Below are positions 16,415-22,239 of a DNA stretch of 64,000 bases, piece by piece (the first letter of the stretch is position 1; each line of letters starts with the position of its first letter). The position numbers and the translations under genes are program-made. The notes under the pieces are model-generated. The model ran no database searches. It worked only from the letters and a program-made list of their open reading frames with translations, and had not been told where the DNA came from. The DNA lies in IMG/VR virus record IMGVR_UViG_3300012039_000002, positions 1 through 64,000 of that record, one strand, 5' to 3'. Source of the DNA: a virus.

Positions 16415-16485
16415 GCCGGCGTAGCTCAAAAGTAGAGCAATCGGCTGATAACCGATCGACGGAGGGGCAGTACCTCTCGACGGCA
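16415..16485 (+). tRNA. tRNA-Ile(GAU) with rewritten elbow
   Basis: Anticodon stem ATCGG/CCGAT with loop CTGATAA. The D-loop is AAAAGTA and the T-loop GGCAGTA on a 5-bp stem GGAGG/CCTCT. The usual G18G19 and TTCRA are both gone, leaving A18, G19 and G54 G55 C56. Acceptor GCCGGCG/CGACGGC has one mismatch. 71 nt. Discriminator A then CAT. Confidence 0.85.
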
Positions 16486-16492
16486 CATTTGT

Positions 16493-16521
16493 TGTACAGC
16501 CGCTACAGCTTATGATATAAT
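16493..16521 (+). promoter_or_regulatory. Promoter, TGTACA-N17-TATAAT
   Basis: TGTACA 16493-16498, extended TGA and TATAAT 16516-16521, upstream of the DUF3307 gene. Confidence 0.8.
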
Positions 16522-16548
16522 GTATTCATAAATAATCGAGGTGAGTGC

Positions 16549-16914
16549 ATGTTAGAACTTTTATTCTTTCTAGTCTTTACGCACTTCGTAATGGATTTTT
16601 GCATGCAATCGGATTTTATGTCAAAGTATAAAGGCAAGCTTCCGTTTGTGATGTTTGTGCATGTATTTGTCTGGACGTTTGCGGTTTGTTGGATGGCAAC
16701 TTATTTCGGAGCTTTGTCTTGGTGGGCTCCAATTTTCTTGTTTGTGGGACACTGGGCTTGCGATCAATATAAGATTCATTTGATCGAAAAAGAAAACTTG
16801 AAGGATGAAGCTAATCCGGACGTGCTATCCAGATTAAAGTTCTTGTTTCATGCTGATCAAGTTTGGCATTTAGTTCAGCTTTTAATTGTAGCAACACTTG
16901 GGGTCTTAGTTTAA
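16549..16914 (+). CDS. DUF3307-type membrane protein
   Basis: 121 residues with about four membrane helices. The start LFFLVFTHFVMDFCMQSDFMSKYK carries the HxxxDF..Q....K signature of DUF3307, and a second polar motif HWACDQYKIH follows. Function of the family is unknown. Its last codons overlap the 5' end of tRNA-Ala(UGC), so the mRNA must be cut or read as both. Confidence 0.8.
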   Translation: MLELLFFLVFTHFVMDFCMQSDFMSKYKGKLPFVMFVHVFVWTFAVCWMATYFGALSWWAPIFLFVGHWACDQYKIHLIEKENLKDEANPDVLSRLKFLFHADQVWHLVQLLIVATLGVLV

Positions 16915-16970
16915 TGGGAAAACTCTCGGCTTGCACCCGAATGATAAGGGTTCGATTCCCTTAGGCTCCA
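16900..16970 (+). tRNA. tRNA-Ala(UGC)
   Basis: Acceptor GGGGTCT/AGGCTCC, anticodon loop CTTGCAC, standard T-arm. The first 15 nt overlap the end of the DUF3307 gene. Discriminator A then CAT. Confidence 0.9.
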
Positions 16971-16977
16971 CATGGGA

Positions 16978-17055
16978 GGGTGGCGAGACAGCACTCTCAT
17001 TCGCCGGCCAGTCTGCAGCTCGGACCGGGATACGAATGCTTGAGCCACCCAACCA
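16978..17055 (+). ncRNA. tRNA-sized junction RNA with AACCA tail
   Basis: GGGTGGC (16978-16984) pairs perfectly with GCCACCC (17044-17050), followed by AACCA. Inside are a hairpin GAGA/TCTC and a stem ATTCG/CGAAT around 29 nt. It resembles the other CCA-ending elements but lacks a T-arm next to the acceptor and an anticodon arm. Confidence 0.4.
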
Positions 17056-17060
17056 GCCAC

Positions 17061-17128
17061 ATTCTGTTAGTTTAATAAAACGCCTTCTCGTAGAGAAGGA
17101 GATGCTGGTAGATGGCCGGCACAGAATA
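17061..17128 (+). tRNA. Minimal cloverleaf tRNA, central anticodon GUA, tiny D-loop
   Basis: All four helices are perfect: acceptor ATTCTGT/ACAGAAT, D-stem GTTT/AAAC with a 4-nt loop, anticodon stem CCTTC/GAAGG with loop TCGTAGA (C33), T-stem GCTGG/CCGGC with loop TAGATGG. There is neither G18G19 nor TTCRA, as in reduced mitochondrial tRNAs. Discriminator A then AT. Amino acid identity is uncertain. Confidence 0.6.
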
Positions 17129-17154
17129 ATTTTAAACTCAAGGAGGATGTACAC

Positions 17155-17202
17155 ATGATAGAGAGTATCTAGTCTGGCTAGCCAGACATAGGAGGCTATC
17201 AT
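17155..17202 (+). promoter_or_regulatory. Hairpin hiding SD and start codon, with a 4-codon leader frame
   Basis: ATGATAG (17155-17161) can pair with CTATCAT (17196-17202), which contains the start codon of the next gene; between them is the palindrome GTCTGGCTAGCCAGAC and the SD aggagg. A second strong SD (17141-17146) precedes ATG 17155, which starts a frame of only four codons (MIES). Translation of the leader could open the hairpin. Confidence 0.45.
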
Positions 17203-17332
17203 GGGTTACTATCCTCATCGAGATAGAACCGCCAAGAACTACGGGGAAATGGGATCCAACCCCAACCGCAAGCGTCGTGGCAAGAAACGCGGAATGAAGG
17301 CTGGCAAGCAGAAGAAAGCTCGTCGAGCCTAA
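17201..17332 (+). CDS. Very small basic protein
   Basis: 43 residues with about 17 Arg/Lys, mostly in the second half (RKRRGKKRGMKAGKQKK), SD aggagg. It probably binds nucleic acid and might coat RNA or DNA. No family is recognised. Confidence 0.6.
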   Translation: MGYYPHRDRTAKNYGEMGSNPNRKRRGKKRGMKAGKQKKARRA

Positions 17333-17374
17333 CAAAAATTTGTCAAAGGCTCAGGACGCTGAGAAATGGGCAAA

Positions 17375-20789: not shown

Positions 20790-20792
20790 CAT

Positions 20793-20864
20793 GCGGGTGT
20801 CGTATACTGGCTATTACCTCAGCCTTCCAAGCTGATGAAGAGGGTTCGATTCCCTCTACCCGCT
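20793..20864 (+). tRNA. tRNA-Gly(UCC)
   Basis: Acceptor GCGGGTG/TACCCGC, anticodon stem CAGC/GCTG with loop CTTCCAA, standard T-arm, discriminator T then CAT. Confidence 0.92.
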
Positions 20865-20872
20865 CATTTTGA

Positions 20873-20901
20873 TGTACAATCAAATGCATTTGTGGTATAG
20901 T
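20873..20901 (+). promoter_or_regulatory. Promoter, TGTACA-N17-TATAGT
   Basis: TGTACA 20873-20878 and TATAGT 20896-20901 with 17-nt spacing, before the lytic transglycosylase gene. Confidence 0.75.
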
Positions 20902-20957
20902 AGTTATATCAATTGAAAGGAGCCAAAATCCAACGATGGGAAGGAAGACCCACCGCG

Positions 20958-21473
20958 ATGAAAAAGATATTAATAATCACGATTATAGCATGTACGGCTT
21001 TGTTCGCATCCATGTTTACAAGACCGGATCAGAGATTGTTGCTTACGCTGGATTCGGTGAATCACCCGGATGTGATACAAGTAGAAAAGATGATAGACAA
21101 GACGGGAGCAGATGTCCCGGCAGTTACAAAAAAGAAAGTGGCCCTTGCTATAGCAGAACATGCTAAATACTATGGAATAAAACCAAAGAATTTAGTTGCT
21201 ATAGCATTTGTTGAGTCAAAATTTCAACCAACCCTTATCAATAGTACAGGCGACCATGGATTGATGCAGATCAATTGGCCGACTTGGAAGAACAGATTCA
21301 CAAGAGATCCAAAAGATCTTCTTAACGTCTACAAGAATGTAGAAGTTGCATGCAAAATTATCAATATAAACAAAAGCATGGGACAGACTGACTTGGCCGA
21401 TTATCATTCTTTTAATGATGAACCAAAAGCCATTTATCAGGCTAAATTAAGAGAAGTTCTGAGGAGGCTCTAA
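20958..21473 (+). CDS. Lytic transglycosylase (SLT domain) with signal peptide
   Basis: 171 residues from ATG 20958, which gives a basic-hydrophobic N terminus (MKKILIITIIACTALFAS) fit for export or a signal anchor. The SLT domain follows: IAFVESKF with the catalytic Glu near residue 95, GDHGLMQINWPTW, and a late YHSFND. It cuts peptidoglycan between MurNAc and GlcNAc in the periplasm, for lysis or entry. A TTG start at 20913 after the SD gaaaggag would add 15 residues. Coupled to the next gene. Confidence 0.85.
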   Translation: MKKILIITIIACTALFASMFTRPDQRLLLTLDSVNHPDVIQVEKMIDKTGADVPAVTKKKVALAIAEHAKYYGIKPKNLVAIAFVESKFQPTLINSTGDHGLMQINWPTWKNRFTRDPKDLLNVYKNVEVACKIININKSMGQTDLADYHSFNDEPKAIYQAKLREVLRRL

Positions 21474-21811
21474 TGTCTAATACGCTCGACGCTGTAAAGG
21501 CAACACTGACGAGAGAGAGAACTGCGCTAGACAAAGAATTGAAGCAGCCTTGGTACGACACATTTGTTTGTGGTGCGCTTGTCTGCGGGATTGCCGTGGC
21601 CATCGTAATCATGTTTTTAGACACGAAGAAATACGCTATTCAAGAGAGAATGACGAGAATGCATATAGAAGCTGTAACAGCTACAGATAAAAATTGTAAT
21701 GATTGTCATTTGGGCGCTTCTTTTGTTAATTTATTCAACCACCCAATGGTGAAAGCTGATGATAATGTCATTACTCTCATGATGGATAAGGCTAAGATAA
21801 AGCGATGGTAA
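21473..21811 (+). CDS. Membrane protein with a CxxCH motif
   Basis: 112 residues. One membrane helix at about residues 31-50 is followed by a soluble tail containing NCNDCHLGASF, a CxxCH sequence that in c-type cytochromes holds heme. With only one motif, and topology not known, zinc binding or chance are also possible. It starts in a TAATG overlap with the transglycosylase gene, so an envelope role is likely. Confidence 0.6.
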   Translation: MSNTLDAVKATLTRERTALDKELKQPWYDTFVCGALVCGIAVAIVIMFLDTKKYAIQERMTRMHIEAVTATDKNCNDCHLGASFVNLFNHPMVKADDNVITLMMDKAKIKRW

Positions 21812-21969
21812 AAGAATACAAAGAAAAAGAATTTTTTAATTGCGAGTTTTGCCGTTGCAGAACTAATGCAAATCTTCGTAGATGCTGTGAATTGGGCTAC
21901 GAGGCTGATTTAAGAAAGAGTAAGAAATTAGCGGGTGAATCGGCGGATGTGCAGATACCAGCCTCATAA
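21805..21969 (+). CDS. Small Cys-rich hypothetical protein
   Basis: 54 residues with Cys at 13, 16, 18, 27 and 28, probably one zinc site. It overlaps the previous gene by 7 nt, and its last 13 codons run into an unusual tRNA; the TAA falls in that RNA's anticodon loop. Confidence 0.5.
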   Translation: MVKEYKEKEFFNCEFCRCRTNANLRRCCELGYEADLRKSKKLAGESADVQIPAS

Positions 21970-22014
21970 GCTGGGAGACAAAATCTCTAGCCTGTTTAAC
22001 TCAGGTACCCGCTA
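21930..22014 (+). tRNA. Class II tRNA-like RNA with CAU anticodon and encoded CCA
   Basis: Perfect acceptor AGCGGGT/ACCCGCT with discriminator A and CCA (22015-22017). Anticodon stem CCAGC/GCTGG is perfect, loop CTCATAA (CAU). A long variable arm GAGA-CAAAA-TCTC makes it class II, not known for Met or Ile tRNAs. T-stem GCCTG/CAGGT with loop TTTAACT. The D-region CGGCGGATGTGCAG recalls Leu tRNAs. It overlaps a small gene. Confidence 0.6.
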
Positions 22015-22091
22015 CCAATAAGCAGTTTCCCTTGCTAAGTGCCGGGGAGTAAAACGAGAGGGTGATAACGCTCCTCTTGTTCCTGCACAAC

Positions 22092-22160
22092 GGCTTACGA
22101 ATAAGTATTCAGCTGCGGCTCATAACTGCGGCCTACTCGGGGCGGTACCGAGGTAAGCCA
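22092..22160 (+). tRNA. tRNA-like RNA with CAU anticodon, mini D-arm, altered T-loop, encoded CCA
   Basis: Perfect acceptor GGCTTAC/GTAAGCC, discriminator A, CCA (22161-22163). Anticodon stem TGCGG/CTGCG with loop CTCATAA, 5-nt variable region, T-stem CTCGG/CCGAG with loop GGCGGTA, the same altered T-loop type as the Ile and Gln(UUG) tRNAs. The D-arm is a mini hairpin GAAT-AAGT-ATTC. A likely Met or Ile2 tRNA. The 75-nt stretch before it (22018-22091) has only imperfect hairpins. Confidence 0.65.
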
Positions 22161-22168
22161 CCACAAAT

Positions 22169-22239
22169 TGACCTATGGTGAAACAGTATCACGGTTGGCT
22201 TTGAACCAGCAGTCCGAGGGGCGGCACCTCGTGGGTCAG
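22169..22239 (+). tRNA. tRNA-Gln(UUG) with rewritten elbow
   Basis: Acceptor TGACCTA/TGGGTCA, anticodon stem GTTGG/CCAGC with loop CTTTGAA. The D-loop is AACAGTA on GTGA/TCAC and the T-loop GGCGGCA on CGAGG/CCTCG. 71 nt, identical arm lengths to the two Ile tRNAs. Discriminator G then CAT. Confidence 0.85.

Follow-up and report, generated by a model that had tools for sequence, protein, structure and literature searches.

Outside organelles and tRNA-Pyl, the combination of G18 and pseudouridine 55 (Psi55) in the tRNA elbow is described as near-universal, and the exposed surface made by positions 19 and 56 is read by the L1 stalk of the ribosome and by RNase P. Here we describe tRNAs in which G18/U55 is replaced by A18/G55. 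They were encountered in a stretch of viral DNA, positions 1 to 64,000 (hereafter, the window) of the 163,355-base IMG/VR record IMGVR_UViG_3300012039_000002, which carries an extensive array of tRNA genes spanning about 11.8-29 kb. Residue 18 of a canonical elbow inserts itself between residues 57 and 58 of the T-loop and makes contact with residue 55, and residue 19 pairs with residue 56 (PMC4810234). Modification enzymes have their targets in the same loops: TruB acts on U55, TrmH on G18, and TrmA on U54, and m1A58 is formed on A58 (PMC7912444). In other RNAs, the G of a UGNRA T-loop meets an A from outside the loop to give a composite GNRA tetraloop (PMC2258182).

Exchange of the elbow pair in the window and its covariation

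Three plus-strand genes of the array exemplify the exchange: tRNA-Ile(GAU) (16415..16485), tRNA-Ile(UAU) (19948..20018), and tRNA-Gln(UUG) (22169..22239). An earlier sequence-only reading of the window had reported that they share a length of 71 nt, a D-loop AANAGTA, and a T-loop GGCRGNA, and this description was borne out by Rfam and by a loop-blind cloverleaf scanner, which scores the four stems and ignores the loop letters. Each gene has arms of 7/4/5/5 bp and D- and T-loops of 7 nt. The loops read AAAAGTA and GGCAGTA in Ile(GAU), which has one acceptor mismatch (5-68), AATAGTA and GGCAGAA in Ile(UAU), a perfect cloverleaf, and AACAGTA and GGCGGCA in Gln(UUG). They depart from canonical loops in having A18 G19 in the D-loop and G54 G55 C56 R57 G58 in the T-loop, and both bases of a G19-C56 pair are present. 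The three score 50.8 to 54.8 in the loop-blind scan, in which 35 plus-strand cloverleaves between 11.5 and 29.5 kb reach at least 44 and shuffled sequence reaches a maximum of 34. Rfam tRNA bit scores are 50.1, 56.5, and 40.6, respectively (gathering score, 29), and ARAGORN, run on the window, misses all three genes. The window also encodes a tRNA-Thr(UGU) with an A18/G55 elbow of the TGCAA kind (18782..18858, plus strand; D-loop AAAACAAGCA, T-loop TGCAAAC, CCA encoded), and a second, canonical Thr(UGU) gene lies at 28048.

The proposal that G18-U55 had become A18/G55 with G19-C56 kept, and that the two loops co-vary, was examined by means of a fixed-context test. Viral contigs were searched with one fixed D-arm varying only at position 18, and position 55, unused in the search, was read afterwards. 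Positions 55-56 were GC in 37 of 40 distinct foldable tRNAs with A18; in the G18 control, they were TC in 88 of 90 and GC in 0, among the matches listed. A scan of bacterial and archaeal genomes, one per species for about 85,000 species, gave the same picture for the A18 pattern, with GC in 43 of 46 bacterial-genome tRNAs. Neighbouring tRNAs that lay outside the pattern selection were, at positions 18-19/55-56, GG/TC (943) or AG/GC (275), and the mixed types were rare (GG/GC, 21; AG/TC, 8), the majority of GG/GC cases being alignment-ambiguous. When only 7-nt D-loops are counted, so that the register of 18-19 is certain, the numbers are 224 GG/TC, 83 AG/GC, 1 GG/GC, and 0 AG/TC, and G19 and C56 are present in all 83 AG/GC tRNAs. 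The D-loop and T-loop changes co-vary, as a unit.

Positions 54 and 58 likewise change as a pair within the class, being U-A, G-G, or A-U. The U-A form (the TGCRA kind) accounts for 193 of 345 A18/G55 tRNAs, including the window Thr(UGU), while G-G is found in the window Ile and Gln tRNAs; G54/G58 occurs in 67 of 345 A18/G55 tRNAs versus 0 of 1,024 canonical ones. The claim that U54 and A58 are gone therefore holds for the GGCRGNA genes, whose T-loops, as had been stated, lack the target bases U54, U55, and A58, and does not extend to the class. Because many members keep U54 and A58, the constant of the class is A18/G55, not the loss of 54 and 58.

Two sibling phages (L308/L008 and L054) have the same array at ~75% DNA identity, and syntenic genes in them follow the exchange from one state to the other. 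The window Gln(UUG) has the A18/G55 elbow and its L308 orthologue the canonical one; the two share their D-stem, and Gln(CUG) is the neighbour of both. For Lys(UUU), the A18/G55 form belongs to L054 and the canonical form to L308, with D-loops AATAGTA and AATGGTA, respectively, on identical D-stems. This paired switching indicates that both loops change together in the same gene, repeatedly. Phe(GAA), whose stems diverge more, also differs between L054 (A18/G55) and the window (canonical), and Ile(GAU) is A18/G55 in all three phages. Standard loops in relatives, which the sequence-only reading had named as evidence against its claim, do occur in L308 at Ile(UAU) and Gln(UUG). The Ile(UAU) gene of L308, with its long variable arm, is probably no orthologue of the window gene, and the canonical Gln orthologue strengthens the covariation because both of its loops have switched together.

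L308 also encodes, at position 5289 on the minus strand, a CAU tRNA with C1xA72, a GGG/CCC anticodon stem, and the T-loop TGCAATT, which is apparently a phage initiator tRNA with an A18/G55 elbow.

Distribution and signs of a role in translation

In 2.24 Mb of fetched loci, 346 of 1,511 distinct tRNAs are A18/G55, a proportion that is not a population frequency because the loci were chosen for an A18 D-arm or its canonical counterpart. The change is not restricted to Ile and Gln, the isotypes named in the sequence-only reading, which had passed over the window Thr(UGU), nor is it restricted to phages. All 20 isotypes are represented, in many phages and also in genome assemblies, where the carriers include Verrucomicrobia arrays, His(GUG) of Microgenomates/Candidate Phyla Radiation (CPR) bacteria, and Pro(UGG) of Obscuribacterales; virus-specificity is rejected. 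Some arrays are wholly or nearly converted, with ratios of A18/G55 to canonical among classifiable tRNAs of 17 to 0 (L051), 14 to 0 (L210), 16 to 1 (L004), and 18 to 2 (L208). When A18/G55 tRNAs were compared by BLAST with isolates, mainly canonical tRNAs were returned. Nevertheless, two isolated phages carry unannotated members: Mesorhizobium phage Cp1R7A-A1 (MT188704), with a Pro(UGG) at L293:5803, and Edwardsiella phage ET-ABTNL-9 (MN399336), with a CAU tRNA at L294:1996. ARAGORN recovers 1011 of 1024 canonical genes and 211 of 345 A18/G55 genes (99% versus 61%) and only 7 of the 67 of the GGCRG kind. Because it misses many of these genes, the numbers of tRNAs counted in phages and bacteria are underestimates.

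The class retains the features of tRNAs that are charged and used in translation, and by inference this is what its members are. Identity bases are kept, as evidenced by Pro C1-G72 (29/30) and A73 (30/30), Cys U73 (18/18), Ile A73 (43/43), and Asn G73 (18/19). U33 is found in 335 of 366 A18/G55 tRNAs, and CCA is encoded by 249 of 366 (68%), compared with 655 of 1030 canonical tRNAs (64%).

A rarer swap affects the neighbouring pair, G19-C56, which becomes A19-U56. Among the siblings, Arg(UCG) goes from G-C to A-U at 19-56, L054 having A-U. The T5-like Escherichia phage EC148 encodes a tRNA-Ile (L295:3997-4070, plus strand) with D-loop AGCGAGCTA and T-loop TTTAAAT, which combines G18/U55 with A19-U56; its phage group is one that can be handled in the laboratory. 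In the window, a CAU tRNA with a long (15-nt) variable arm (21930..22017, plus strand; T-loop TTTAACT) has a D-loop, GGCGGATGTGCA, that allows G18/U55 plus A19-U56 in the register we infer.

Neighbouring genes and other structured RNAs

Of the 21 arrays containing five or more A18/G55 tRNAs, 11 adjoin a TROVE/Ro60 gene, versus 0 of 50 loci with canonical viral arrays, a comparison confounded by taxonomy, 9 of the 11 being Verrucomicrobia chromosomes (L188, L199, L203, L204, L205, L208, L218, L233, and L237) and two being viral (L032 and L051). For viral arrays alone, the counts are 2 of 6 A18/G55-rich versus 0 of 50 canonical (p 0.01), and most viral arrays are without TROVE. Two genomes with adjacent TROVE and RtcB genes were left uncounted, as their contigs hold no tRNA array. 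The inspected neighbours of the Verrucomicrobia arrays are ordinary chromosomal genes, and genomes with such arrays have, in addition, a tRNA complement of ordinary size (about 50). By a TROVE gene on a Sphingobacteriales contig (L195:3100-3320, plus strand), a T-arm (GCGGGTGCAAATCCCGT) stands upstream of an A18 D-arm and the acceptor halves match, an arrangement that makes a circularly permuted tRNA possible.

The window phage encodes several RNA-processing functions. An RNA ligase gene (29298..30296, plus strand; phrog_548, E 5e-38; PF09414, E 2e-17) lies downstream of the array, NAD-salvage genes occupy 24250-26778 of the window, and a CCA-adding tRNA nucleotidyltransferase and RtcB are encoded at record positions 136,984-138,450 and 143118-144218, the RtcB match covering 143184-144215 (E 3e-75). 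Together, these are predicted to form the phage's own tRNA maturation and repair kit. Inside the array, a gene of ~203 nt (15308..15510, plus strand) resembles RNase P RNA. It matches RF00010 at 52.3 bits (E 4e-15), under the gathering score of 100; its predicted fold contains P1 and P4, both CR I (GAGGAAGCTCAGGAC) and CR V (AACAGAATCCTGGC) are present, and the specificity domain measures only ~45 nt. Sibling L008 lacks this stretch, and there the tRNA genes on either side of it directly adjoin. RF00010 was found in 0 of 33 records with A18/G55 arrays, at a threshold that the window copy too falls below, and no link between the two is claimed.

Three further structured elements of the plus strand lie within the array. 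The CAU tRNA-like gene at 22092..22163 has the T-loop GGCGGTA, an encoded ACCA, a 4-bp D-stem with loop AAGU, a 7-bp anticodon stem, a 3-nt variable loop, and no acceptor/D linker. Its minimum free energy fold is a cloverleaf with an abnormal D-arm (z -3.0). It had been said to share both the T-loop and the AGTA part of the D-loop with the Ile and Gln genes; the former is correct, while the AGTA is half loop and half stem. A tRNA-like cloverleaf with perfect stems at 17061..17131 (z -4.2) has the anticodon loop TCGTAGA, without U33, and its 4-nt D-loop AATA and T-loop TAGATGG leave it with no recognisable elbow. The spacer at 16975-17057 is structured, its nested hairpins being closed by a 7-bp stem (GGGTGGC/GCCACCC), and is not a normal tRNA.

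Origin and meaning of the exchange, and known systems

We consider it likely that, taken as a whole, these are translation-type tRNAs in which G18/U55 has repeatedly given way, both positions together, to A18/G55. G55 (loop position 2), R57 (loop position 4), and the external A18 of the UGNRA motif co-occur in the class, and this match of G55-C56-R57 plus A18 to the composite-GNRA motif argues that the elbow has been rebuilt, not lost. In the proposed mechanism, the G18/U55 pair would be exchanged in one isotype after another, with G19-C56 retained. An intercalated A18 would join G55, C56, and R57 in a composite-GNRA (UGNRA) T-loop, a three-dimensional pairing modelled on the known motif, and the 54/58 pair would adapt as U-A, G-G, or A-U. 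Both the L-shape and the flat surface at 19-56 should come through the swap intact. The TruB target U55 and the TrmH target G18 are absent, as are the TrmA target U54 and the m1A58 target A58 in GGCRGNA loops; the A18/G55 elbow predicts tRNAs incapable of carrying Psi55.

What the exchange might be good for is a separate matter. Ro60 and RtcB are members of RNA-repair operons (PMC7790460), and cleaved host tRNAs are believed to be replaced by those of phages (PMC7824862), which makes an advantage attractive. Phage and Ro60-linked arrays may supply spare tRNAs to cells whose tRNA pool is attacked, with an elbow that would allow folding in the absence of modification by the host and/or go unnoticed by enzymes recognising the canonical form. 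Escape from such enzymes, which the sequence-only reading had also raised, is plausible, and we hold an advantage of this kind, by escape or by freedom from modification, as a tentative reading, somewhat short of an even chance. A stronger version sees A18/G55 as a second, self-sufficient elbow of mobile and stress-associated tRNA sets, which would mark a tRNA pool running in parallel, both in phages and in bacterial arrays linked to Ro60, and invisible to TruB, TrmA, TrmH, and hypothetical elbow-reading tRNA nucleases, so that translation could continue once the ordinary pool is destroyed; this version seems rather unlikely.

Several points weigh against these proposals. Canonical tRNAs form the majority in the window phage and in other phage arrays, so a phage tRNA does not need the swap. 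Chromosomal His and Pro tRNAs that seem ordinary also have A18/G55, which a neutral origin fits equally well. No elbow-reading defence nuclease was identified in this analysis, and the record of the window phage holds no TROVE gene, to which the taxonomic confounding of the TROVE counts is to be added. On the side of covariation, the alignment of 18-19 is ambiguous in long D-loops, and Fisher p-values overstate significance because the sequences are related.

The neutral alternative is that A18/G55 is structurally equal to G18/U55 and that lineages drift between them via short-lived intermediates, without benefit. It is a real possibility though a minority one, nearly as likely as an advantage. 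Ordinary chromosomal tRNAs of CPR, Verrucomicrobia, and Obscuribacterales carry A18/G55, both kinds of tRNA are mixed within one array, and the converted isotypes vary between siblings, all of which speaks for drift. Drift accords less well with the very small number of intermediates (AG/TC, 8; GG/GC, 21), with whole arrays being converted (17/17 in L051 and 14/14 in L210), and with the enrichment of A18/G55 beside Ro60.

Acquisition from, or mimicry of, a host that bears such tRNAs, for example, one of the Verrucomicrobia or CPR bacteria, whose genomes do contain them, is improbable. The phage's polymerase, ~30% identical to the nearest one, points to no particular host, and the siblings bear the swap in differing isotypes.

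A single origin, in which one A18/G55 tRNA multiplied by duplication with a change of anticodon, or its loops were passed on by gene conversion, is a little less probable again. A wider nearest-neighbour test gave a mixed result that can be read in its favour: judged by stems, the closest relative is most often a same-isotype A18/G55 tRNA on another contig (170 of 340). The common ancestor suggested by the sequence-only reading is also tenable for Ile(GAU), conserved across the three siblings. It does not hold for Ile(GAU) and Ile(UAU), which have only 59% of stem bases in common, or for the Gln, Thr, and Lys A18/G55 tRNAs of the phage group, whose stems most resemble those of canonical tRNAs of the same isotype, and isotype identity elements are retained. 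Remoulding from one tRNA is therefore unlikely within the phage group, and repeated conversion fits better, though gene conversion of the loops may have played a part. Finally, a use outside translation, as Y-RNA-like ligands or decoys for Ro60 and the RNA-repair machinery, is suggested by TROVE adjacency and is quite doubtful given that all 20 isotypes occur with intact identity elements, U33, and often CCA and that TROVE is missing from the window phage and most viral arrays.

Repeated exchange of the elbow in translation-type tRNAs is the preferred reading, and the class is indicative of a pool of tRNAs linked with RNA repair. Hundreds of tRNAs, drawn from every isotype, carry this second elbow with both positions exchanged together, and they are also a natural experiment on the purpose of the elbow and its modifications. 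Combinatorial selections of tRNA elbows have reportedly been carried out in the Steinberg laboratory. Our search found no paper on A18, G55, and the T-loop together, with subscription literature lying outside that search.

Among described systems, anticodon-nuclease-evading phage tRNAs (PMC10264068; PMC11555353) are likewise altered phage tRNAs that still decode. However, their changes sit in the anticodon loop, and D- or T-loop changes are unmentioned in those two papers. RNA-repair tRNA arrays, including the Anabaena trn operon with rtcB (PMC10272220), Ro60-RtcB operons (PMC7790460), and those of jumbo phages (PMC7824862), similarly combine large tRNA clusters with RtcB or TROVE, and an altered elbow is not reported for them in the literature found. 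In tRNA-Pyl and other non-canonical tRNAs (PMC7609411), the D-/T-loop consensus is also altered, and the passages of that review consulted here do not describe A18/G55. The CAU gene at 22092 resembles this group in its short linker, very small D-loop, extended anticodon stem, and variable loop of 3 nt. tRNA-Pyl loses G19-C56, whereas the A18/G55 class retains it and spans all isotypes. The UGNRA lonepair triloop of the TPP riboswitch and rRNA (PMC2258182) corresponds to U54-G55-C56-R57-A58 with an external A18, exactly so in the TGCRA kind, although here it occurs in tRNA, and the GGCRG and AGCRU kinds deviate from its U-A closing pair. Compared with the canonical elbow (PMC4810234; PMC7912444), the cloverleaf, 7-nt T-loop, R57, G19-C56, G53-C61, and isotype identity bases are the same, while A/G takes the place of G/U at 18/55, G/G or A/U can occur at 54/58, and modification sites are missing. 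A18/G55 is a new tRNA variant, not a new kind of system.

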